Below are positions 47,131-60,721 of a DNA stretch of 64,000 nt, in pieces (position 1 is the first letter of the stretch; each line of letters opens with the position of its first letter). The position numbers and the translations under genes are program-made. The notes under the pieces are model-generated. The model was not told the DNA's origin. It saw only the letters and a list, made by a program, of their open reading frames with translations, and did no database searches. Source of the stretch: Flagellimonas sp. HMM57 (GTDB lineage: Bacteria > Bacteroidota > Bacteroidia > Flavobacteriales > Flavobacteriaceae); NCBI RefSeq assembly GCF_021390175.1, contig NZ_CP090004.1, positions 1,488,001 to 1,552,000 on the forward strand. The letters run 5' to 3'.

Positions 47131-48162
47131 CTAAACGGGCAGGACTTCGTTAGATTTCCATTCATTGACCCATTTGCCCATTAAAGCAACCCAAGCATCA
47201 CTATCGTTCAAACATGGAATATGCTTGTAGTGTTCTCCTCCTGCCTCTTCAAACTGTTCTTTGCCTTCCATGGCAATTTCTTCTAAAGTTTCCAAGCAAT
47301 CGCTTACAAAGGCAGGTGTAATCACAGCAAGTCGCTTTTTTCCTTCTTTCGCCAAACGCTCAAATTCGTAATCGGTATACGGTTTCAACCATGGGTCACC
47401 AGCCAATCGCGACTGAAATGAAGAACTCACTTTATCTTCGGGAAGGTCAAGATATGCTTTTACCAATTCTGTAGTATCGTAACACTGATGCCTATAACAG
47501 GTGTGGTGTGCTACCGAATTGATTTTACAGCAGCTACCATCAATCTTACAATGGAATTTGGTCGGGTCCGATTTTCTAATATGTCGTTCTGGAATACCAT
47601 GGTACGAGAAGAGAATATGGTCATATTCAAAATCCTTCAGACCATCTGCAATACTTTCCGATAGTACTTTAATATACTCTGGACTATTATAAAATGCAGG
47701 CAAGGTGGTCAAATGGACTTCTGGAAAATATTCTTGTTGTACTTCCATCACTTTTACCACAACGGTCTCATAGGAAGACATGGCATAATGTGGATATAAT
47801 GGCACTAATAAAACCTCATCCACTCCCTTGTCTTTTAATTCTTGAAGTGCATTCTTAATGGTCATGCTACCGTAACGCATCCCTAGAGCAACGGGCATAT
47901 CTGTTTGCTCCTGAACTTTTTCCATAAATCGTTCCGAAATAACAATTAGCGGAGAACCTTCCTCCCACCAGATTTTGGCATATGCCTCCGCGGATTTTTT
48001 GGGACGGGTCTGAAGAATAATTCCTCGTACTAAAAGATTCCGCAACAATTTTGGAACATCAATTACCCGTTCGTCCATCAGAAATTCATCCAGATATGGT
48101 TTTACATCTTTTGCGGTAGGGCTATCCGGTGAGCCCAAATTAACCAACAATACTCCTTTCAT
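47131..48162 (-). CDS. hemH: Ferrochelatase
   Basis: 343 residues. The N-terminal LLVNLGSPDSPTAKDVKPYL motif and catalytic FSYHGIPERHIRKSDP (the histidine binds porphyrin or metal) are both present. A cysteine-rich stretch (DGSCCKINSVAHHTCYRHQC) is an insert that in many ferrochelatases binds an Fe-S cluster. The enzyme inserts Fe2+ into protoporphyrin IX, the last step of the route whose early genes lie at 50972-58232. It is on the opposite strand and not in their operon. Confidence 0.95.
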   Translation of the reverse strand: MKGVLLVNLGSPDSPTAKDVKPYLDEFLMDERVIDVPKLLRNLLVRGIILQTRPKKSAEAYAKIWWEEGSPLIVISERFMEKVQEQTDMPVALGMRYGSMTIKNALQELKDKGVDEVLLVPLYPHYAMSSYETVVVKVMEVQQEYFPEVHLTTLPAFYNSPEYIKVLSESIADGLKDFEYDHILFSYHGIPERHIRKSDPTKFHCKIDGSCCKINSVAHHTCYRHQCYDTTELVKAYLDLPEDKVSSSFQSRLAGDPWLKPYTDYEFERLAKEGKKRLAVITPAFVSDCLETLEEIAMEGKEQFEEAGGEHYKHIPCLNDSDAWVALMGKWVNEWKSNEVLPV

Positions 48163-48284
48163 AGCAATTCGTTAAGAGCAGTAAAAATACTATTTGAGGT
48201 TGATTTAATATTTGATTCTGTCAATTTGTTTCTCTATTATTCCATAGATAATCCTAATTTAGTTTGATGAACCCAAAATAGGCT

Positions 48285-49133
48285 ATGTTTCGTACGGTTT
48301 TATTTTATCTCCTTTTGATTTTCGGATTTGTTGCGCAGGCACAGATTACCTGCACTTCTAAAGATTCTACGTTATTTTACTCCAAGTTGAAAGACATTCA
48401 AAAAATTGAAGAAGAGGCTACAGGAAATACAATTGTTTCCATAGGAAAAACATTTTTGGGAATACCTTATGTTGAGAAAACACTGGAAGTTGGCGAAACC
48501 GAGACCCTTGTAGTGAATCTAAGGGGTTTGGATTGTACGACTTTTGTCGAAAATGTTGTGGCTTTTGGTTTGCTACACAAAAACCAACAATATGAGTTTA
48601 CGGATTTTACCAAAAATCTTCAAACTATTCGGTATAGGAATGGAGAGTTAAATGGCTATCCTTCTCGTTTACATTATTTTACAGAATGGATTAGAAACAA
48701 TGAACAAAAAGGTTTGGTCATGGACGTTACTTCCAAATTGGGAGGTGTCGAGACTAAAAAGGCAATTAACTTTATGGGTACGCACAGAAAGTTGTATCCA
48801 TTTTTAAAGCAAAATGACAACTACAATGCAATTTTAGAAGTTGAGAAAATGATAGCCGAGGAGAATCTATGTATTCTTCCACAACATCAAATTAAACAAA
48901 ACGAAAGCCTTATTCAATCTGGTGATATCATTGCACTGGCAACTTCTATAAAAGGGTTGGATGTAACCCATACTGGAATCGCTATTCGCCAACCAAACGG
49001 TAGAATTCACTTACTACATGCTTCGAGTTCTGGGTCGGTAATGATTACCGAAGAACCCTTGGTCGACTATCTCAAAAAAATAAAAAACAATATTGGAATT
49101 ATAGTGGCAAGACCTGTTTTAATTCCTTCCTAA
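48285..49133 (+). CDS. DUF1460 exported cysteine hydrolase, NlpC/P60-like
   Basis: 282 residues with a signal peptide (MFRTVLFYLLLIFGFVAQAQ). A cysteine in LDCTTFVENV (C84) and a histidine in DVTHTGIAI are the expected catalytic pair; later residues LHASSSGSVMI are typical for DUF1460. Known structures of this family are NlpC/P60-like cysteine hydrolases acting on peptidoglycan peptides or amides. Exported location fits cell-wall work. The gene overlaps the convergent ThuA gene by 15 bp. Confidence 0.85.
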   Translation: MFRTVLFYLLLIFGFVAQAQITCTSKDSTLFYSKLKDIQKIEEEATGNTIVSIGKTFLGIPYVEKTLEVGETETLVVNLRGLDCTTFVENVVAFGLLHKNQQYEFTDFTKNLQTIRYRNGELNGYPSRLHYFTEWIRNNEQKGLVMDVTSKLGGVETKKAINFMGTHRKLYPFLKQNDNYNAILEVEKMIAEENLCILPQHQIKQNESLIQSGDIIALATSIKGLDVTHTGIAIRQPNGRIHLLHASSSGSVMITEEPLVDYLKKIKNNIGIIVARPVLIPS

Positions 49134-49874
49134 ACACCATATAATTGCCCCTAGCAAGTGCTTTTTAAAATCAGGTTCATCAAAAGAAGCTTCGGTATGA
49201 CCACCACCAGTATAAAACGAGCGGCCACCATCAAATTCATGATACCAAGCTATAGGGTGGTTTTCACCATTTGTCCCACCTTCATAACTGGTTTCATCCA
49301 AGTTGAGCAAAACGGAAATATTAGGGTTTAAATTTTTGTAATTGTACCATTCATCACTTCGTTGCCACGTATCTTTTAAGTGTGCCGTAGATGGATGTTC
49401 CTTATTTACAACGTCTATTTTAGCATCACGAATATTTGGGTCGTTCGGGTGACCATTAAAATAGCCTCCTACTAGTTTTCCATACCAAGGCCAGTTATAT
49501 TCGGTATCGGTGGCAGCGTGTATCCCTAAAAAACTTCCTCCGTTCTTTATATAGTTTTCAAATGCCGTTTGTTCGTTGTCCGCTAAAACTTCAGAAGTCG
49601 TACTAAGGAAAACGACCAGTTTATAATTTTTTAAATTTTGGGGATTAAAATCAGCGCTTGTTTCGGTCTGTAATACAATGAACCCGTTTTGTCGTCCCAA
49701 CTCTTTTAAGGTTTTTACTCCTTTTTCTATAGATTTATGGCGATATCCTGTTGTCTTGCTAAATACCAATACCAATTCTGGGGCTTTGGGTACATCTTCT
49801 GTCTTAGGTTTATCTTGGGCATTTGTGCATCCTAGAAAAAAAACAACCAAAAAAAGAAAACTATAAAACTTCAT
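49119..49874 (-). CDS. ThuA-domain lipoprotein
   Basis: The ATG at 49874 gives 251 residues with a lipoprotein signal (MKFYSFLFLVVFFLGCTNAQ). The ATG at 49892 would overlap the AraC gene by 8 bp. The ThuA fold is shown by LVVFLSTTSEVLADNEQTA, GSFLGIHAATDTEYNWPWYG and a final SFYTGGGHTEASF. Related ThuA proteins take part in sugar metabolism, but the role of this exported class is unknown. It lies 10 bp after the AraC regulator on the same strand and may be in its operon. Confidence 0.85.
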   Translation of the reverse strand: MKFYSFLFLVVFFLGCTNAQDKPKTEDVPKAPELVLVFSKTTGYRHKSIEKGVKTLKELGRQNGFIVLQTETSADFNPQNLKNYKLVVFLSTTSEVLADNEQTAFENYIKNGGSFLGIHAATDTEYNWPWYGKLVGGYFNGHPNDPNIRDAKIDVVNKEHPSTAHLKDTWQRSDEWYNYKNLNPNISVLLNLDETSYEGGTNGENHPIAWYHEFDGGRSFYTGGGHTEASFDEPDFKKHLLGAIIWCLGRN

Positions 49875-49884
49875 CTTATATCCT

Positions 49885-50763
49885 TTAAACATTGGAAGTT
49901 AAATATTTTTTTGGTGTGGTACCGTACTTCTTTTTGAAAGATGCTATAAAGTGGCTTGCGGTACTGTAACCCACACGCAACCCAACTTCGTTAACGTTAT
50001 GGCTTCCGGTCTCCAGCATTTTTCTGGCATACTCCATTTTGTAATCAAACAGAAAACCATAGACGGAGTCACCATAGATTTGTTTAAACCCTTCTTTCAA
50101 TTTCTTTAGACTAAGCCCAATTTCCTTGGAAAGCTCAGCTAATGTGGGAGGCTCTGACATTCTTGAAATTATGATTTCCTTTGCCATTTTTAAACGCCTT
50201 ACATTTTCTTCATCGGCCAAGAAAGGGCATTGTTCCAAGTCTGCATTCTGGGTCTTGTTGAAATACAAGGAAATTAGTTCGTATGCTTTTCCCTTTACAT
50301 ACAGTTCTTTTATGGATGGATGTAGGTTATAAGTCATCAATTGGCTCAATACTACCGCAATTGCAGGTGAGACCGCCTCCTGCGAATAGTATTTCTTCTC
50401 CTTGTTGTCCTCACTTAAAAAAGGAATATAGTTTGCTTCACTCGAAAAAAGTGAATGAAATCTTCTTATGGTCATAACTACGGACAACAACCATGTGTTT
50501 GGAGAAACATTTAAATGTAGGGGCAGGTCTTTTTGTGTGTTATATAATAGTAATGAGTTTTCCTCAGATACTTCTAAATGATATTGTCCTTTGTTAAAAT
50601 AAAACCGGGACCTTCCTTTTAGGCAAAAATGAAACTGAATGAAAGAACTGTTGATTTCTCTTTCAATTATCCTACTCTCATCGGTATCGTTCTGAATTTT
50701 AAGAATGTAAAATCCATTTTCTATCAAAATTTCCTCATATGAACCTTGGGCGACATTTTCCAT
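49885..50763 (-). CDS. AraC-family regulator divergent from the heme operon
   Basis: 292 residues. An N-terminal beta-rich sensor (about 1-170) is followed by the AraC HTH with LAELSKEIGLSLKKLKEGFK and VGLRVGYSTASHFIASFKKK. The gene is divergent from hemA with 208 bp between the starts. In my recollection this arrangement recurs in Flavobacteriaceae, so the regulator is a candidate controller of heme synthesis; PchR-type AraC proteins that sense iron or siderophores share this build. Which effector it binds cannot be read. Confidence 0.85.
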   Translation of the reverse strand: MENVAQGSYEEILIENGFYILKIQNDTDESRIIEREINSSFIQFHFCLKGRSRFYFNKGQYHLEVSEENSLLLYNTQKDLPLHLNVSPNTWLLSVVMTIRRFHSLFSSEANYIPFLSEDNKEKKYYSQEAVSPAIAVVLSQLMTYNLHPSIKELYVKGKAYELISLYFNKTQNADLEQCPFLADEENVRRLKMAKEIIISRMSEPPTLAELSKEIGLSLKKLKEGFKQIYGDSVYGFLFDYKMEYARKMLETGSHNVNEVGLRVGYSTASHFIASFKKKYGTTPKKYLTSNV

Positions 50764-50829
50764 CTCTAAATACTACTTTTTGAAATGATTAATTCTATTT
50801 AGAATGACTCTAAATTGTTTTTAATAATT

Positions 50830-50837
50830 CAAATTTA
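50830..50837 (-). promoter_or_regulatory. -7 box candidate for the AraC regulator
   Basis: On the minus strand this reads TAAATTTG, an exact TAnnTTTG, 66 bases before the regulator's start codon. No -33 TTG is found at the usual distance, so the call is weak. Confidence 0.35.
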
Positions 50838-50926
50838 TCAATAAATACAGTGTTTTTGAAGAATTTAAGCTAAAAGTACAGATAATTGTCCAAAGCATGA
50901 TATTTATAGTTCCGCTAGCGTTATTT

Positions 50927-50952
50927 TTTGAAATATGACACCCCTATTTTTG
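50927..50952 (+). promoter_or_regulatory. Promoter candidate for the hem operon
   Basis: An exact TATTTTTG lies at 50945-50952, 19 bases before the hemA ATG. TTTG at 50927-50930 is only 14 bases upstream of it, which is shorter than the usual spacer, so the -33 part is uncertain. Confidence 0.4.
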
Positions 50953-50971
50953 TGTCGCGATTTAATCCTTT

Positions 50972-52228
50972 ATGAGGAATTACCATATTTCCAAACATAA
51001 CTCATTTTATGCCATTGGCCTTAGCTACAAAAAAGCTGATGCCGAGATTAGGGGAAAGTTTAGCCTAGACGTTCCTGCCATAGATAACATCATGGTACAG
51101 GCAAAGGAGCAGGGTATAGATGTTCTTCTTGCCATATCTACTTGCAACCGAACAGAGTTTTATGGTTTCGCACAGCATCCTTATCAACTTATTAAAATGC
51201 TCTGTGACCAGACCCAAGGTACTGTGGAGGAGTTTCAGAAAGTTGCCTATGTATATAAGAACCATGATGCCATTTCACACATGTTCAAGGTGGGTACTGG
51301 TTTAGATAGTCAAATTCTTGGTGATTTTGAAATCATAAGCCAGATTAAACAAGGGTTTTACCGTTCCAAAAAACACGAAATGGCCAATCCTTTTCTGGAG
51401 CGTTTGTGCAACGCTGTTATACAGGCAAGCAAGCGTATTAAAAATGAAACTGAACTATCATCGGGTGCTACTTCGGTAGCTTTTGCTTCTGTTAGGTACA
51501 TTCTAGATACGGTTCCCAATATCTCAGAAAAAAATATTTTACTCTTTGGTACGGGAAAAATAGGACGAAATACCTGTAAAAATTTAGTAAAGCACTCCAA
51601 GAATTCTCAAATCACCCTTATCAATAGAACAAGGGAAAAAGCTGAGGTGGTTGCAGGAAAATTTGATTTAACGGTTAAGGACTACGGGGACCTACAAAGC
51701 GAAATACGAAGAGCGGATATTTTAGTCGTTGCCACCGGAGCACAACTGCCAACAATTTCCAAAGCACTTATTTACACAAAAAAACCATTGCTTATTCTAG
51801 ATCTTTCTGTTCCTAAAAACGTGTCCGATGACGTCTTGGAACTTGAAAATGTATCCTTGGTACATCTAGACCAGCTTTCCCAGATTACAGACGATACGTT
51901 GAACAAAAGAAAAGAATTCGTCCCCAAGGCAGAAGCAATAATAGACCATGTAAGGGAAGAGTTTTTAAAATGGTTGGAAACAAGGAAGTTTGCCCCTGTT
52001 ATCAACGCTCTAAAGGAGAAACTAAAAACAATGAAAGCCGAAGAAATCGACTTTCATTCCAGAAAGTTATCTGACTTTAACGAAAATCAGGCAGAAATCA
52101 TTTCCGAACGTATCATTCAAAAAATAACCAAGCAATTTGCAAACCATTTAAAAAGTTCAGAGGTCGATACCGAAGATAGTCTAGAGCTTATCCAAAAAGT
52201 TTTTCAGCTAGAAATCGATTCTAAATGA
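50972..52228 (+). CDS. hemA: Glutamyl-tRNA reductase
   Basis: 418 residues; catalyses the first committed step of the C5 route to heme, reducing glutamyl-tRNA to glutamate-1-semialdehyde. The active-site cysteine is C58 in AISTCNRTEFYGF. The NADPH domain has ILLFGTGKIGRNTCKNL (about 190-206), and the C-terminal dimerisation helices follow. It is the first gene of the operon and overlaps hemC by 4 bp. Nothing in the sequence is missing. Confidence 0.96.
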   Translation: MRNYHISKHNSFYAIGLSYKKADAEIRGKFSLDVPAIDNIMVQAKEQGIDVLLAISTCNRTEFYGFAQHPYQLIKMLCDQTQGTVEEFQKVAYVYKNHDAISHMFKVGTGLDSQILGDFEIISQIKQGFYRSKKHEMANPFLERLCNAVIQASKRIKNETELSSGATSVAFASVRYILDTVPNISEKNILLFGTGKIGRNTCKNLVKHSKNSQITLINRTREKAEVVAGKFDLTVKDYGDLQSEIRRADILVVATGAQLPTISKALIYTKKPLLILDLSVPKNVSDDVLELENVSLVHLDQLSQITDDTLNKRKEFVPKAEAIIDHVREEFLKWLETRKFAPVINALKEKLKTMKAEEIDFHSRKLSDFNENQAEIISERIIQKITKQFANHLKSSEVDTEDSLELIQKVFQLEIDSK

Positions 52229-53151
52229 GCAAAATCATACGAATTGGAACCCGCGATAGCGAATTGGCATTGTGGCAAGCAACAACAGTACAGCAAAAAC
52301 TGGAAGCATTAGGCTACGATACTACGTTAGTACCCATTAAATCTACAGGCGACCAGGTTTTGGACAAACCACTCTATGAATTGGGAATTACGGGAATTTT
52401 TACCAAGACCTTGGATATTGCATTATTAAAAGGCCAAATTGATATTGCAGTACATTCCATGAAGGATGTTCCTACGCAATTACCAAAAGGTATTGTCCAA
52501 ACCGCGGTTTTAGAACGTGCCGTAACCAATGATATTCTGGTTCACAAAGGATTGGATTTTATGGAATCTGACAACGAAGCTACGATAGCTACCGGTAGTC
52601 TGCGGAGAAAAGCACAATGGTTGCATAAATATCCGCATCATAACGTAGTGGATTTGAGGGGTAATGTAAATTCAAGGCTCTTAAAACTTATTGAAAACGA
52701 CTGGAGCGGTGCCATTTTTGCCCAAGCAGGATTGGAACGCATCAAATTATTGCCCAAAGATGCTTTGGAATTGGACTGGATGATTCCTGCACCAGCACAA
52801 GGAGCAATGCTTATAGTAGCACAGGAAAATGATGAGTTTTCCAAAGATGCTTCTCAAAAGCTCAATCACAAAGATTCTGAGATTACGACCACAATTGAAC
52901 GTGAGTTTTTAAGAACGCTTGAAGGCGGTTGTACGGCTCCCATTGGGGCTTTGGCTCAAATAAAAGACCAATCAGTTCATTTTGAAGGAGTTATTTTTTC
53001 TTTGGATGGCAAGCAAAAAATTGAAATCCAAAAAGAGACTGAACCAAAAAATTCGTCAGGGTTTGGACAAGCTTGTGCCAAAGAGGTCTTGAATATGGGT
53101 GGAGATAAACTTATGGACGCAATACGAAATGAAAACAGTGCTCTCCACTAA
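52225..53151 (+). CDS. hemC: Hydroxymethylbilane synthase (porphobilinogen deaminase)
   Basis: 308 residues; joins four porphobilinogen units into the linear tetrapyrrole. The start MSKIIRIGTRDSELALWQA is typical. The dipyrromethane cofactor cysteine is C236 in EGGCTAPIGA, and the arginine-rich TGSLRRKAQWL and DLRGNVNSRLLKL segments bind substrate. It overlaps hemA by 4 bp and hemD by 23 bp, so translation is coupled. It is full length. Confidence 0.96.
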   Translation: MSKIIRIGTRDSELALWQATTVQQKLEALGYDTTLVPIKSTGDQVLDKPLYELGITGIFTKTLDIALLKGQIDIAVHSMKDVPTQLPKGIVQTAVLERAVTNDILVHKGLDFMESDNEATIATGSLRRKAQWLHKYPHHNVVDLRGNVNSRLLKLIENDWSGAIFAQAGLERIKLLPKDALELDWMIPAPAQGAMLIVAQENDEFSKDASQKLNHKDSEITTTIEREFLRTLEGGCTAPIGALAQIKDQSVHFEGVIFSLDGKQKIEIQKETEPKNSSGFGQACAKEVLNMGGDKLMDAIRNENSALH

Positions 53152-53794
53152 ATTACTCTCCCCTTCGCAAAAGGAATTATTTCTCAACTCGGGAATAGGT
53201 ATGGTCGAGTATGATGCGCTCCATATTGAATTTTTGGACATAGCGATTCCTGATAATTACCAAAATTATATTTTCACCAGTAAGAATGCTGTAAAAGCAT
53301 TTTTGAATCGTTCAAAACACCTCGATAGAAACAAATGCAATGCTTTTTGTGTGGGTGAAAAAACAAGGATGCTTTTGGAAGAAAGTGGCATGAAAGTCAT
53401 TAAAGCTGAAGAAAATGCCTCAGATTTAGGTGATTTTATCATCAAAAATCATGAAAATGAGAAGTTTTTGTTTTTATGTGGAAACTTAAGAAGAGAGGAA
53501 TTACCGGAGATGTTATCAAGAAATAAAATACGGTGTACTCAAATTATAGCCTATAATACTCATTTGATTCCTAGAAAATTCAATCGCATTTTTGACGGTA
53601 TTCTTTTTTTTAGCCCGAGCGGTATAAAAAGTTATACGCAAGAAAATTCAATTTCAAAAAGTTTGGCCTTCTGTATTGGCAATACTACTGCCAATGAAGT
53701 AAAAAAGCACACAGATAAAATTATAATCGCCAACAGACCAACTGTGGAAAATGTATTGGTTCAAGCTATAAAATATTTTAAAAAACATGATTAA
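53129..53794 (+). CDS. hemD: Uroporphyrinogen-III synthase
   Basis: The ATG at 53129 is preferred ([14 protein letters not shown]), giving 221 residues; a GTG at 53099 lies deeper inside hemC. The family is weakly conserved, but [10 protein letters not shown] near the N-terminus, [14 protein letters not shown] in the middle and [15 protein letters not shown] at the end are characteristic. It cyclises hydroxymethylbilane to uroporphyrinogen III. Position between hemC and hemE supports the call. It overlaps hemE by 8 bp. Confidence 0.9.
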
Positions 53795-54811
53795 AAACGA
53801 CCTATTTCTAAGAGCCTTAAAAGGTGAAACTGTAGACAGACCACCTGTATGGATGATGCGCCAGGCTGGACGTTATCTTCCCGAATTTATGGAACTTAAA
53901 GAGAAGTACGATTTCTTTACACGCTGTCAAACTCCAGAACTGGCTTCTGAAATAACGATACAACCCATTCGTCGTTTTGGTATGGATGCGGCTATACTGT
54001 TCAGTGATATTTTGGTCATTCCACAGGCAATGGATATCGAGGTTCAAATGAAACCTAATTTTGGGCCCTATCTCCCAGACCCTATTAGGTCTGCAGAAGA
54101 TTTGGATAGGGTCATCGTCCCAAGCATAGAGGAATCACTTGGTTATGTGCTGGATGCCATAAGCATGACCAAGGAAAAATTAGAGGATGAGATTCCATTA
54201 ATAGGTTTTGCAGGGTCTCCATGGACCATTCTTTGCTACTGTGTCGAAGGACAGGGAAGCAAAAGTTTTGATAAAGCGCGCGGATTTTGTTTTACCCAGC
54301 CCGAAGCTGCCCATCAACTACTTCAAAAAATTACAGATACCACCATCGCCTATTTAAAGGCCAAAGTAAAAGCAGGTGTAAACGCTGTTCAAGTTTTTGA
54401 TTCTTGGGGGGAATGTTGTCTCCCGTGGATTATCAAGAATTTTCATTTCAATACATTCAGCAAATCGTAGATGCCTTAAAAGATGATGCTCCTGTAATCG
54501 TTTTTGGAAAAGGTTGTTGGTTTGCCTTAAAAGAAATGGCACAATCTGGGGCTTCTGCATTGGGTGTGGATTGGACCTGTTCTGCACAAAATGCCAGATA
54601 TCTAACAGGAGGAAATATTACATTACAAGGGAATTTTGATCCTGCACGGTTACTTTCTCCGCCAGAGACCATCAAAAAAATGGTCACTCAAATGATTCGT
54701 GAATTCGGTAAAGACAAATATGTGGTCAACTTGGGGCACGGTATCCTTCCTCATATTCCAGTAGAAAATGCAAGAGCTTTTATTGATGCCGTAAAAAAAT
54801 ATACCGAATAG
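53787..54811 (+). pseudogene. hemE: Uroporphyrinogen decarboxylase, interrupted by an apparent frameshift
   Basis: The gene is the right length for a 341-residue HemE but is split between two frames. The first part (53787-54470) carries [28 protein letters not shown] and [14 protein letters not shown], then reads normally to VQVFDSWG before veering off. The remaining 135 residues continue in another frame from 54404 ([12 protein letters not shown] onward) through GNFDPARLL and [15 protein letters not shown] to the end at 54811. The break lies in a run of six G at 54406-54411, where seven would restore the frame. The enzyme decarboxylates uroporphyrinogen III to coproporphyrinogen III and has no second copy here. 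Sequencing error, true mutation, or slippage are all possible. Confidence 0.9.
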
Positions 54812-54820
54812 TTTTTTATC

Positions 54821-55369
54821 ATGCAAATCGATTTTGAAAACTATAGTATTAGCCCAATTCAAGAAAAAGATGCTTGGAGGCTTTGCGATTTTGTGGTTTC
54901 AAATTCAGAACGATTAAAAGCGGATTTTCCAAAAACGTTACAACAAAATCTAACCCCAACTTTGGCCGAATTGTTTGTAGCAAAAAAGGTTAAGGAGTTT
55001 GTCTCAAAAGACGAATTCTTGTTTACAATTAAAGAAAATACCAATAGGTCTATTATTGGACTGTTATATGTAAAAGAGCTTCAAAAAGTAGCAGGTCAGG
55101 GAGAGTTGGCCTATTGTATTAGTTATCGTTATGAAGGACTGGGCATTACGAAAACTTGTGTTGAAAAAATGATTCCATGGTGTTTTAAAGAGGCAAAACT
55201 ACATACACTTCAAATCATTGTTCATGACCGTAACTTGGCCAGTAAACAAATTGCAAAAAGGAATGGATTTGCTTGGAAACGAACTTTGCCAAAAGAGCAC
55301 ACAACAGGAAATGGAGAAATTCTCGATATGGAATTGTTTGAGCTTCATCATCCAAAAACCATACACTAA
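54821..55369 (+). CDS. GNAT acetyltransferase of the RimJ/RimL group
   Basis: 182 residues. The segments SIIGLLYVKELQKV-like core and ISYRYEGLGITKTCVEKMI hold the acetyl-CoA loop, and IVHDRNLASKQIAKRNGF is the conserved C-terminal part of RimJ/RimL proteins. The family acetylates N-termini of proteins, small amines or amino acids. It lies between hemE and the DUF6973 gene with only a 9-bp gap after hemE, so it is in the hem operon. Whether it has a heme-related role is unknown. Confidence 0.85.
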   Translation: MQIDFENYSISPIQEKDAWRLCDFVVSNSERLKADFPKTLQQNLTPTLAELFVAKKVKEFVSKDEFLFTIKENTNRSIIGLLYVKELQKVAGQGELAYCISYRYEGLGITKTCVEKMIPWCFKEAKLHTLQIIVHDRNLASKQIAKRNGFAWKRTLPKEHTTGNGEILDMELFELHHPKTIH

Positions 55370-55372
55370 ACA

Positions 55373-55867
55373 ATGAATGCAATTAGGGCATTTAAACAAT
55401 TGGATTCAAAAAGTATTGGGATTTTGGTCAAATTATGTTTTCGGTTTCCTTTGTTTGTTTTCCCTACGCTGTCCGCCACAAGAAAATGTATGTCAGTTTC
55501 CACACAACATTATGGCCGTGCGCACTATGAAAATGGTCCTGCCAATGCTTTTCGACATGCACTTTGGAATTATTTGATTGCTAAAAGTTGCTATCGCTGG
55601 AGTAAAAATAAAATCAGAGTCCTAAGCTGGTCAGAAAAAATTACTGATTGGCACGAACATGCCTTCCCTAACCGAAAACTGGCAAAAAATATGGATTTGC
55701 ACAATAATGAAATCGGTCGGTATATTTTTAAGAAACATCCCAACAAAACAATACTTGAAGTAATCGAAATCTTTAGGGAAATGACGGCAACATCCTCAAA
55801 AGTAGATGCCACTTCCAACTTTGCTACCTTTAAAAACAAATTAGTTCATATAACCGATGAAAGATAA
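55373..55867 (+). CDS. DUF6973-type protein within the heme operon
   Basis: 164 residues with several histidines in a regular pattern (NGPANAFRHALWNYLIA, ITDWHEHAFPN, NMDLHNNEIGRYIF), suggesting a metal site like those of small phospholipase-type helical proteins. It matches my recollection of DUF6973, without known function. It starts 3 bp after the GNAT gene and overlaps hemF by 11 bp, so it is co-translated with hemF. The overlap makes a role in the heme route or in handling its intermediates worth testing. No signal peptide is visible; the first 40 residues are mildly hydrophobic. Confidence 0.75.
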   Translation: MNAIRAFKQLDSKSIGILVKLCFRFPLFVFPTLSATRKCMSVSTQHYGRAHYENGPANAFRHALWNYLIAKSCYRWSKNKIRVLSWSEKITDWHEHAFPNRKLAKNMDLHNNEIGRYIFKKHPNKTILEVIEIFREMTATSSKVDATSNFATFKNKLVHITDER

Positions 55868-56759
55868 ATTCTACGCATATATACAAACCCTTCAAGATAC
55901 CATTACAAACAAGCTTGAAGAAGTTGATGGGAAAGCCAAATTTCAAGAAGACCTTTGGAAACGTCCTGAAGGCGGAGGTGGCAGAACGCGGGTCATAGAA
56001 AATGGAGCGGTTTTTGAAAAAGGTGGTGTCAACATTTCTGGCGTGCATGGGGAACTGCCAAAAAGCATGCAGCAATATTTTGGTGTTGAAAATGCTGATT
56101 TTTTTGCTTGTGGCCTAAGTCTAGTGTTGCATCCTAAAAACCCAATGGTGCCCACAGTACATGCCAATTGGCGGTATTTTGAAATGTATGATAAGAACGG
56201 GAGTATTATCGATCAATGGTTTGGAGGAGGACAAGACCTTACGCCGTATTACTTATTTGAAGAAGATGGAAAACACTTTCACACCATTTGTAAAAAAGCA
56301 TGTGATGCGCATAATCCTGAATTCTATTTCAACTATAAAAAGCGTTGTGATGAATACTTTTGGAACTCACATCGTAATGAAGCGAGAGGATTAGGTGGGC
56401 TTTTCTTTGATTATTGTAAAGCAATCGATACCATGACCATGGAAGATTGGTACAACTTTGTAACCGAAGTTAGCAATAGTTTTTTAGAAGCATATATACC
56501 GATTGTTTCAAAAAGAAAAATGCTTCCATACAACCAAAAACAAAGGGATTGGCAGGAAATAAGACGCGGAAGGTATGTGGAGTTTAACCTAGTACATGAT
56601 AAAGGAACCTTGTTTGGATTAAAGACAAATGGACGTATCGAAAGTATTTTGATGAGCCTTCCGCCGCATGTACAATGGAGATATGACCACCATCCAGAAA
56701 AAGGAAGTGACGAGGAGAAATTGATTGAAGTACTGCAAAGTCCCAAGGAATGGGTATAA
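55857..56759 (+). CDS. hemF: Oxygen-dependent coproporphyrinogen III oxidase
   Basis: 300 residues; converts coproporphyrinogen III to protoporphyrinogen IX using O2. The family motifs GGGGRTRVIENGAVFEKGG, NISGVHGELP and WFGGGQDLTPYYLFEED are all present. The invariant substrate arginine region (RGRYVEFNLVHDKGTLFGL) is near residue 240. It overlaps the DUF6973 gene by 11 bp. The use of HemF indicates aerobic heme synthesis; a HemN is not in the window. Confidence 0.96.
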   Translation: MKDKFYAYIQTLQDTITNKLEEVDGKAKFQEDLWKRPEGGGGRTRVIENGAVFEKGGVNISGVHGELPKSMQQYFGVENADFFACGLSLVLHPKNPMVPTVHANWRYFEMYDKNGSIIDQWFGGGQDLTPYYLFEEDGKHFHTICKKACDAHNPEFYFNYKKRCDEYFWNSHRNEARGLGGLFFDYCKAIDTMTMEDWYNFVTEVSNSFLEAYIPIVSKRKMLPYNQKQRDWQEIRRGRYVEFNLVHDKGTLFGLKTNGRIESILMSLPPHVQWRYDHHPEKGSDEEKLIEVLQSPKEWV

Positions 56760-56769
56760 ATTATGATTA

Positions 56770-56791
56770 GTTTTAAGCATTAAGTGAAAAG
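56770..56791. repeat. Left flank repeat of the four-helix-bundle gene
   Basis: The stretch at 56770-56791 (GTTTTAAGCATTAAGTGAAA and two more bases) is imperfectly inverted in the region after the gene (about 57180-57201), with some 18 of 22 positions matching. It directly precedes the inserted gene between hemF and hemB. Confidence 0.5.
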
Positions 56792-56809
56792 TTTTAAGTG
56801 TTACGAGCT

Positions 56810-57169
56810 ATGGTGAATTATAAAAACTACAAAGTGTGGCAGCGTTCCCATAATTTAGTACTTAAAATTTATAAAATAACTGAACAATATCCTAAATCCG
56901 AGCAATTTGGATTGGTCTCACAAATGAATAGGGCATCCGTTTCAATTCCAACCAACATCGCTGAAGGTTGTGGCAGGGAAACACAGAAAGAACTGATTCG
57001 ATTTTTATATATTTCATCTGGCTCTGCGCATGAATTGGACTATCTAATTCTGGTTTCAAAAGAACTTGGCCTCATAAATCCGAAAAAAGCGGAGGACTTA
57101 TTGGTAGAAATCGATGAAATCAAAAAAATGCTGGCAGCACTCATAAAAACCATCAAAAAAACACTTTAG
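56810..57169 (+). CDS. Four-helix-bundle protein (23S rRNA intervening-sequence type)
   Basis: 119 residues from ATG 56810 (MVNYKNYKVWQRSHNLVLKI); a GTG at 56798 is also open. It has the clear TIGR02436/S23 pattern: YKVWQRSHNLVLKIYK, SQMNRASVSIPTNIAEG and a FLYISSGSAHELDYLI helix. Members were first found inside intervening sequences of 23S rRNA and are related to Avd proteins of diversity-generating retroelements; no reverse transcriptase or variable repeat is seen here. The gene lies between hemF and hemB and is flanked by imperfect inverted repeats, as if it were inserted. Its function is unknown. Confidence 0.85.
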   Translation: MVNYKNYKVWQRSHNLVLKIYKITEQYPKSEQFGLVSQMNRASVSIPTNIAEGCGRETQKELIRFLYISSGSAHELDYLILVSKELGLINPKKAEDLLVEIDEIKKMLAALIKTIKKTL

Positions 57170-57179
57170 ATATAGTAAC

Positions 57180-57236
57180 TTTCAACTTAAAGCTTAAAAC
57201 CAAATACTTATAGCTTCCAGCTTAAAACTTAGAACA
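57180..57236. repeat. Right flank repeats of the four-helix-bundle gene
   Basis: The stretch carries repeated CTTAAA-type units (CAACTTAAAGCTTAAAAC, then CCAGCTTAAAACTTAGAAC) and is the imperfect inverse of the left flank. It fills the 73-bp space before hemB. Confidence 0.5.
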
Positions 57237-57242
57237 AAAGAT

Positions 57243-58232
57243 ATGTATCCACTTATAAGAAATAGAAGATTGCGTGCATCGGAATCCATAAGAAGATTGG
57301 TTCGTGAAACCATTGTGACCCCAGATGACTTTTTAGTCCCGCTATTTGTAGTTGAAGGAAAAGGGATTAAAGAAGAGATTCCTTCCATGCCCAACTATTA
57401 TCGCATGAGTCTGGACCACCTTGAGAAAGAAGTAAAAGAATTATGGCAAATGGGCCTTTGTTCCGTCTTATTGTTCGTGAAGGTTCCAGATAGCTTAAAG
57501 GACGACAAAGGAACAGAAGCGCTAAATCCTGAAGGATTGATGCAACGCGCCATCAAAAACGTAAAAAATGCTTGTCCAGAAATGTTGGTCATGACCGATG
57601 TCGCCCTGGACCCCTTCTCTTCCTACGGACACGATGGGATTGTTGCAGAAGGACAAATATTGAACGATGAAACTTCTGAGGTTTTAGCAGAAATGAGCGT
57701 TTCGCATGCACACGCTGGTGCCGATTTTGTTGCGCCAAGCGATATGATGGATGGTCGTATTCTAACTATTCGGGAAGCTTTGGAAGATGAGGGTTTTCAA
57801 AACACGGGGATTATGAGCTATTCCGCCAAATATGCCAGTGCCTTTTATGGGCCTTTTAGAGATGCTTTGGATTCTGCTCCCGTGGATATCGCCAACGTAC
57901 CAAAGGACAAAAAAACCTATCAGATGGATTATGCCAATCGGTTTGAAGCCATTCGAGAAACCCAAATGGATATTGACGAAGGGGCTGATATTGTTATGAT
58001 AAAACCTGGTTTGGCATATTTGGATATTGTTCGCGAAATAAAAAACGAAGTTGATGTACCTGTAGCTGTGTACCAAGTCTCCGGAGAATATGCCATGCTG
58101 AAAGCAGCTGCCGAAAAGGGTTGGCTGGACCATGACAGTGTCATGTTAGAACAATTGACCGCCATTAAAAGAGCCGGTGCCAACATCATTGCAAGTTATT
58201 TTGCGAAGGATTTTATCCGTGTGATGGGCTAA
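57243..58232 (+). CDS. hemB: Delta-aminolevulinic acid dehydratase
   Basis: 329 residues; joins two 5-aminolevulinates into porphobilinogen. The Schiff-base lysines are K196 (SAKYASAFYGPFRD) and K254 (MIKPG). The metal region is DVALDPFSSYGHDG (residues 119-132) rather than the three-cysteine zinc motif, so this is the zinc-independent, magnesium-type enzyme as in Pseudomonas. It is the last gene of the hem operon, separated from hemF by the inserted four-helix-bundle gene. It is full length. Confidence 0.96.
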   Translation: MYPLIRNRRLRASESIRRLVRETIVTPDDFLVPLFVVEGKGIKEEIPSMPNYYRMSLDHLEKEVKELWQMGLCSVLLFVKVPDSLKDDKGTEALNPEGLMQRAIKNVKNACPEMLVMTDVALDPFSSYGHDGIVAEGQILNDETSEVLAEMSVSHAHAGADFVAPSDMMDGRILTIREALEDEGFQNTGIMSYSAKYASAFYGPFRDALDSAPVDIANVPKDKKTYQMDYANRFEAIRETQMDIDEGADIVMIKPGLAYLDIVREIKNEVDVPVAVYQVSGEYAMLKAAAEKGWLDHDSVMLEQLTAIKRAGANIIASYFAKDFIRVMG

Positions 58233-58254
58233 ACGCTATATTAAAAAGCTTTTT

Positions 58255-59565
58255 ATGAAGACCCTCTTTTTGGCGATTCTCTCAATCTTCTTATTGATAT
58301 GGAACGCCCAAGCTCAGCAACTGTCCAAGGATAGAATACTATCAAAACCAAGTTTCGATTCAATATCCGTTGCGTTCAAAGTAGATTCAATAATGACCAA
58401 CGGTATACAAAACCATGCTTTTCCCGGAGCTCAGGTGTTGGTTGCCAAAAACAATGAGGTGATTTTTCATAAAGCTTACGGTTACCATACGTATGATAGT
58501 ATTCAAAAAGTAAGCCTGACCGATGTATACGATTTGGCCTCCGTGACCAAAATTACAGCACCTTTACCAGCTCTCATGAAACTGGTGGATGAGAAAAAAC
58601 TAAAGTTAGATGTCCCTTTTAGTGCGTATTGGAAACCTTGGCGCAATAGAAAAACTAAGAAGAGTATTACCTTAAGGGAGATACTAAGTCATCAAGCAGG
58701 TTTAACACCATATATTGTTTTTTTAAGTAAAGTGATGCAAAATGGGAAGCTGAAAAAAAGATTCATAAAAACCTCAACAAGCAAAAAATTCCAAAAACAG
58801 GCCTATCCTAATATTTATATCAAAAACCGCTTTAAACGAAAAATGTACCGTATCATTAATCGTTCAAAAGTTTCTGATGATAAAACCTACAAGTATTCAG
58901 GGCTGGCATTTCTTATTTTTCCTGAGCTTATTGCCCAATTGACCCAAACCGATTACCAAACCTATCTACAAAATCAATTCTACAAACCAATTGGCGCCCA
59001 TACTTTAGGGTTTAATCCATCCATGAAAGATTTTCCAAATGCAATTGTTCCCACCGAAAATGACACACTATTCCGAAAGGATTTGGTGCAAGGATGGGTT
59101 CATGATGAAAATGCCTCACTTTTGGGAGGGGTCTCGGGCAACGCAGGATTGTTTGGCACGGCAGATGACTTGGTCAAAATGATGTTGTTATATCAAAATT
59201 ATGGACTTCATAATGGAAAACAGATGATATCAAAAGAAACCATGAAAGAGTTTACCAGAATCCAGTTTCCGCAAAACGAAAACAGACGTGGGTTGGGTTT
59301 TGACAAACCTTTGATAGGGAATGACACGCTAAGCGTAGCAGACGCTTATCCATCTCCCTTAGCGAGCAAATCCAGTTTTGGTCATTCTGGATTCACAGGA
59401 ACTTTTGCTTGGGCAGACCCAGAAAACCAATTGGTATTTATTTTTCTTTCCAATAGGGTTTATCCAACAAGAGCGCATCGGAACCTCTACGAACTAAACA
59501 TAAGAACAACGTTACAGCATATTTTTTATGAAGCCTTCTTACTGAATGGGCCAAAAATTAAATAG
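58255..59565 (+). CDS. Exported serine beta-lactamase-like hydrolase
   Basis: 436 residues with a signal peptide (MKTLFLAILSIFLLIWNAQAQ). The SxxK motif is S96-V-T-K99 (DLASVTKI), the tyrosine motif is likely YSG in TYKYSGLAF, and a HSG replaces KTG in SFGHSGFTG. This is the class C/esterase branch (PF00144). True antibiotic hydrolysis is not implied; members include D-aminopeptidases and esterases. An internal basic stretch (about 160-210) is unusual for the family. It follows hemB by 22 bp and may be on the same transcript. Confidence 0.87.
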   Translation: MKTLFLAILSIFLLIWNAQAQQLSKDRILSKPSFDSISVAFKVDSIMTNGIQNHAFPGAQVLVAKNNEVIFHKAYGYHTYDSIQKVSLTDVYDLASVTKITAPLPALMKLVDEKKLKLDVPFSAYWKPWRNRKTKKSITLREILSHQAGLTPYIVFLSKVMQNGKLKKRFIKTSTSKKFQKQAYPNIYIKNRFKRKMYRIINRSKVSDDKTYKYSGLAFLIFPELIAQLTQTDYQTYLQNQFYKPIGAHTLGFNPSMKDFPNAIVPTENDTLFRKDLVQGWVHDENASLLGGVSGNAGLFGTADDLVKMMLLYQNYGLHNGKQMISKETMKEFTRIQFPQNENRRGLGFDKPLIGNDTLSVADAYPSPLASKSSFGHSGFTGTFAWADPENQLVFIFLSNRVYPTRAHRNLYELNIRTTLQHIFYEAFLLNGPKIK

Positions 59566-59599
59566 GTATTCATTATCTTGTTCGCTCTAGCTATAACCA

Positions 59600-60721
59600 A
59601 TGGGACTTCTTTTATTCTACGCATTCATTTCAATTTTCTTTTCATTCCTCTGTTCTATTTTGGAAGCAGTACTCTTGAGCATAACCCCCACGTTTTTAAA
59701 TCTAAAAAAGCAGGAGGGCAAGGAATACGCAGAGGAGCTGGAACAGTTAAAAAAGGATGTCGACAAGCCTCTAATTGCCATTCTGACTTTAAATACGATT
59801 GCCCATACCGTAGGCGCCATCCTCGTGGGCGTTCAGGCCAAAGTAGCTTATGCTGAGCTTTATGGCACCTCAACGTACAACATTTTTGGTATCGAATTTA
59901 CAGAAGACCTCATGGTAGGTGTCGTATCCACAGTAATGACCATTTTAATTTTGGTGGCATCTGAAATAATTCCAAAAACCATTGGAGCAACATATTGGAA
60001 ACAATTGGCAAACTTCACCTCCAAAGCCCTTAACATTATGGTCTTCGTACTTAAATGGACAGGTTTATTGTGGTTATTACAATTGTTCACTAGACTAATC
60101 GGCAAAAAGGGACATCATGGAAGTGTACTGAGCAGGGAGGATTTTACGGCCATGACAGATATCGCCCATGAGGAAGGTGTTTTCCAGGAATCTGAATCCA
60201 AAGTGATAAAAAATCTGTTGAAATTTGATGAAATATTGGCAAAAGATGTCATGACTCCAAGAACCGTCATGAAAATTGCATCAGAAGCGATGACAATCAA
60301 AGCCTTTTTTGAAGAGAACAGGCCCCTTCGATTTTCACGTATTCCCCTTTATAAAGAAAGCGTCGATAATATTACGGGCTACTTTTTAAAGGATGAACTC
60401 ATGGAGGCCATCATCAATAAAAAAGGCAATGAACCTTTAGCGACCATACAAAGGGAAATATTGATCACCAATAGAACCAAACCTATTCCTAACCTATTGG
60501 AAAAATTTGTTGAGCAAAAAGAGCATGTATCCCTAGTGGTTGATGAATATGGTTCTGTTAGCGGAATGGTAACCATGGAAGATGTAATCGAAACCTTGCT
60601 CGGATTGGAGATAATGGATGAAAGCGATAATGTGGAAGACCTTCAAGTACTGGCAAGAAAGAACTGGGAGAGCAGGGCTAAGCGCTTAGGCATTATTGAA
60701 GATAAAAATGAGATAGAGTAA
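59600..60721 (+). CDS. CNNM/CorC-type transporter with CBS domains
   Basis: 373 residues. The N-terminal DUF21 membrane domain (about 1-180) has four hydrophobic segments, starting LLFYAFISIFFSFLCSILEA. A CBS pair follows (about 200-350), with FDEILAKDVMTPRTVM and LVVDEYGSVSGMVTMEDVIE. The C-terminal CorC_HlyC domain is absent or very short. The family moves Mg2+ or other divalent ions. It shares a stop-start overlap (TAATGG) with ogt, so the two are coupled. Confidence 0.9.
   Translation: MGLLLFYAFISIFFSFLCSILEAVLLSITPTFLNLKKQEGKEYAEELEQLKKDVDKPLIAILTLNTIAHTVGAILVGVQAKVAYAELYGTSTYNIFGIEFTEDLMVGVVSTVMTILILVASEIIPKTIGATYWKQLANFTSKALNIMVFVLKWTGLLWLLQLFTRLIGKKGHHGSVLSREDFTAMTDIAHEEGVFQESESKVIKNLLKFDEILAKDVMTPRTVMKIASEAMTIKAFFEENRPLRFSRIPLYKESVDNITGYFLKDELMEAIINKKGNEPLATIQREILITNRTKPIPNLLEKFVEQKEHVSLVVDEYGSVSGMVTMEDVIETLLGLEIMDESDNVEDLQVLARKNWESRAKRLGIIEDKNEIE

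Follow-up and report, generated by a model that had tools for sequence, protein, structure and literature searches.

A probable error in the deposited sequence at a run of six G breaks hemE of Flagellimonas sp. HMM57

The uroporphyrinogen decarboxylase gene (hemE) of Flagellimonas sp. HMM57 is split between two reading frames at a run of six G. Comparison with related genomes makes an error in the deposited sequence the likeliest cause, the gene itself being most likely intact in the organism. The consensus would have dropped one base at the G run, the cause lying in sequencing or consensus calling and not in the cell. The deposited sequence is most likely wrong at hemE because, within the sampled part of the genome, two other genes have slipped in the same manner. 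In annotation, HemE should not be recorded as absent from this genome, nor the organism as a heme auxotroph.

In the window, by which is meant the whole 64,000-nucleotide stretch analysed, hemE spans 53787-54811 on the plus strand, in two frames joined at GGGGGG (Table 1); the sequence across the join is GATTCTTGGGGGGAATG. The upstream-frame codons at the run are TGG GGG GAA, and the ORF opened by the ATG at 53787 then runs to a stop at 54470, so that the N-terminal piece ends in 19 out-of-frame residues encoded past the G run; the -1 frame carries the downstream part of hemE onward. Membership in TIGR01464 (HemE, uroporphyrinogen decarboxylase) was defined as a single ORF scoring above the curated cut-off of 302.95. 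Neither piece reached this score, and the two combined span profile positions 2-338. The initial annotation had described a frameshift at six G that a -1 shift would repair; the frameshift was borne out by the match of two pieces in different frames to the N- and C-terminal parts of the profile, and the direction of the shift by the codon reading. A functional second hemE elsewhere had been named as something that would make the break less noteworthy, and PF01208 (URO-D) matched just the two hemE pieces in the whole genome, a single contig of 4,159,450 bases that is 100% complete. No Rfam match at gathering score was obtained over positions 50000-60000 of the window.

Table 1. Features of the heme gene region, in window positions
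Feature	Position	Strand	Remarks
ferrochelatase (hemH) domain match	47161..48159	-	PF00762; open frame; coordinates converted from whole-genome (G000) numbering
hemA	50972..52228	+	whole ORF; TIGR01035 above cut-off
hemC	52225..53151	+	whole ORF; TIGR00212 above cut-off
hemD-like uroporphyrinogen-III synthase	53099..53794	+	open frame; NF004594 below its cut-off
hemE N-terminal piece	53787..54470	+	227 aa; TIGR01464 profile 2-206, 292.2 bits
hemE C-terminal piece	54404..54811	+	135 aa; internal ATG 54413; TIGR01464 profile 204-338, 124.3 bits
GGGGGG at frame junction	54406..54411	+	one base shorter than relatives
hemF	55857..56759	+	whole ORF; NF003727 above cut-off
hemB	57243..58232	+	whole ORF; NF006762 above cut-off

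HemE is needed in the routes to heme that pass through HemF and HemH, and its loss would block heme synthesis. The remaining hem genes of the cluster, which the initial annotation had taken to be intact, were indeed found as whole ORFs, with hemA, hemC, hemF and hemB above their family cut-offs and the hemD-like gene below; the true start of the latter probably lies inside the ORF listed. The genome encodes two full-length COX1-family proteins. With a true run of six G, the organism would have oxidase genes and yet lack a single step of the heme pathway. A third, short COX1-family match (G000:C1:2918004-2918267, minus strand) lies in a 176-aa open frame and covers profile positions 305-396 only. 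Between hemF and hemB, a four-helix bundle protein (TIGR02436) is encoded at window positions 56798-57169 (plus strand).

The hemE DNA was searched in 59 genomes, that of HMM57 included, and 46 gave a match. Among same-genus relatives 33 of 35 matched; the two others (G007 and G014) are 83% and 75% complete. The site was read in the 29 same-genus relatives for which a locus was given, and in all 29 the frame runs unbroken through it (at least 342 aa, stop to stop). These sequences are one base longer than that of HMM57, with GGGG[A/C/T]GG in 28 and G7 in one; the closest relative (G034, 90% DNA identity) has GGGGAGG. Across the family the G6 pattern was found in 1 of 397 genomes, that of HMM57, and the G7 pattern in 8, both counts being lower bounds since the patterns were strict (serine as TCN; G6 ending in AATG, G7 in NATG). 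The proposal that a seventh G restores the gene is not borne out by these relatives as it was worded: they do have an additional base, which is G in a single one of the 29 and A, C or T in the other 28. Either the A itself is missing or an A-to-G change was followed by a run counted one short. Both are possible, because G034 has 673 aligned GGGGA sites and HMM57 shows the same five letters at 411 of them and GGGGG at 10. An intact form with seven G is accordingly one possibility of two.

In order to sample the assembly for similar events, 824 kb of the HMM57 genome, about a fifth of it, was compared with 685 kb of the G034 genome. The latter supplied 803 ORFs of at least 100 aa, 712 of which were matched in HMM57 (207,796 aligned residues), and three coding frameshifts, hemE included, were accepted by inspection. 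Each of these lacks one base immediately 3' of G4 or G5, at a place where G034 has GGGGA or GGGGGA, a pattern that points to consensus error at G runs. The two other sites were compared base by base with one relative, G034. One is a Na+/H+ exchanger (PF00999/TrkA_N; L074:10572-12430, G000 near 1784301) that has lost one base after GGGG near its C-terminus, leaving the final ~40 residues out of frame; the other is a MacB_PCD/FtsX permease (L077:1-1391, minus strand, G000 near 1833090) that has lost one base after GGGGG ~100 residues from its start. An A directly after four or more G makes up 678 of the 535,571 coding bases, so that all three losses would fall there by chance with a probability of ~2e-9, a figure that assumes one-base losses spread evenly over coding bases and a context picked after the three had been seen. 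The initial annotation had called sequencing error the simplest reading, and these two additional genes with the same one-base loss beside a G run strengthen that view. By extrapolation from three events in the sampled fifth, perhaps 15-20 genes of the whole genome carry such breaks.

The comparison used a looser filter, adopted after a stricter one had overlooked the hemE break of Polaribacter filamentus described below. With G034 ORFs placed onto the HMM57 genome it returned six events, of which the three not accepted were a loss of 5 bases that precedes a more probable start (rel_318719), an A8 in G034 against A7 in HMM57 ahead of an uninterrupted 150-aa ORF with an ATG start (rel_450097), and an overlapping match at 50% identity (rel_191860). 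In the reverse direction 11 events were returned, none of them convincing on inspection as a frameshift in G034; those listed were start extensions (own_321947, own_569787), a tandem repeat, low-complexity matches and paralogues at ~50% identity. Comparison with G025 under the stricter filter (132 of 234 ORFs matched) found only hemE broken, the two other sites lying outside its reach.

The downstream half of hemE was examined for decay. Against L004 it carries 14 synonymous and 2 nonsynonymous changes (dS 0.183, dN 0.0065). Its dN against L005 is 0.047, equal to that between L004 and L005, a control that is not independent, the C-halves of HMM57 and L004 being nearly alike. The break is the sole indel relative to G034. 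An old pseudogene was rejected on these grounds, there being neither relaxed constraint relative to L004 nor a further lesion relative to G034. As the downstream half has not decayed, the break is recent, absent from the cell, or bypassed. The two halves differ in dS from the closest relative (0.81 vs 0.18), and a recombination scar at the break was considered and rejected: the last difference before the G run is at 54386 and the first after it at 54466, and no abrupt change falls at the run itself.

The G6 form with its flanking codons was also scanned in genome_contigs (84,980 species). Six matches were found, again a lower bound given the strict pattern, of which five do not resemble hemE in any of the three frames displayed and one is hemE by translation, that of Polaribacter filamentus ATCC 700397 (L038, NZ_MQUA01000013.1). 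There the gene is single-copy, with only two hemE pieces in the genome, and is broken at the same GGGGGG; the P. filamentus relatives that were read have GGGGAGG in four of five cases and G8 in the fifth, with open frames in all five. Comparison with G455 gave four events in 79 matched ORFs, hemE included, far above the rate in the HMM57 genome, and one event in 81 ORFs in the reverse direction (region compared: L038 and G454 C13 183301-383300). Because its assembly shows four frameshifts in 79 compared ORFs, the P. filamentus break carries little weight. In the protein database, 15 of 22 sequences examined (from 448 matches) are C-terminal hemE fragments of 131-135 aa whose start is the internal ATG. 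No contig is as long as 6 kb for 13 of these fragments, and contig ends or frameshifts could explain such fragments alike.

Indel errors in the consensus at homopolymers occur in assemblies, and the hemE break resembles them: a single base is lost at a G run of a conserved gene whose downstream half has not decayed, and the event recurs in the genome, two further one-base G-run indels lying in the sampled 824 kb. An artefact is further favored by the unbroken hemE frames of all 29 congeners read and the retention of the other heme genes sought and of two full-length COX1-family proteins, and also by the position of the losses, which fall at an A after G4 or G5 and in none of the three cases at an A/T run of seven or more, of which the aligned coding sequence holds 482. 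What differs from the usual picture is the low frequency, 3 in 712 ORFs, and the A that follows the run in G034, which requires either loss of the A or an A-to-G change with contraction. The aligned coding sequence holds 23 G/C runs of exactly six and one of seven, that of hemE included, and in the DNA alignments to G034 the 23 tabulated besides hemE are ungapped. A genome in one contig at 100% completeness is also not a poor assembly overall. Real slips at G runs would look alike, and the other two interrupted genes may not be essential. Alternatively, the sequenced strain might truly have lost one base very recently, in nature or in culture, and would then be auxotrophic for heme or a leaky mutant using heme from the medium. 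True slippage could account for three G-run losses in the same genome, and one other species is broken at the same place; the absence of downstream decay requires a recent origin. The intact frame in every one of the 29 congeners read and the retention of the other heme genes sought and of full-length COX1-family proteins argue against such a deletion, which we regard as unlikely, ranking it second after an artefact.

Least likely of the three, and very improbable, is a real G6 that the cell bypasses, either by a ribosomal -1 slip of glycyl-tRNA on GGG or by RNA polymerase slippage on the six G, so that some full-length HemE is made. The direction is right, the G run would let a GGG-reading tRNA re-pair one base back, and the same site occurs in a second genus. 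The initial annotation had read the run as a -1 slippery heptamer, GGGGGGA, which did not survive inspection: as the upstream codons are TGG GGG GAA, G_GGG_GGA is not made of zero-frame codons, and no X_XXY_YYZ in phase with the upstream frame is present at the run. In folding tests of pseudoknot-free structures, two stretches that begin after the run were no better than their shuffles as a downstream stimulatory structure (z +0.99 and +2.05), and a stretch including the run gave z -0.61. Nor is the site conserved, the G6 pattern being that of HMM57 alone in the family count and of none of the 29 congeners read, 28 of which have no unbroken G run there. Programmed -1 ribosomal frameshifting of the dnaX type shares with hemE a -1 shift at a homopolymer; hemE differs in having no in-phase heptamer, no downstream structure that was found and no conservation. 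That hemE is truly G6 both here and in P. filamentus and is expressed by -1 slippage, the slip rate setting the heme supply, is scarcely credible. With an artefact of the deposited sequence thus ranked first, the hemE break is probably ordinary.

Divergence from G034 over window positions 48000-60000 is mosaic. Only 4 differences fall in 48000-48999. Much of 51000-60000 shows 10-35 differences in every 100 bases, and a single difference lies between 54566 and 54796. This pattern suggests recombination between the species.
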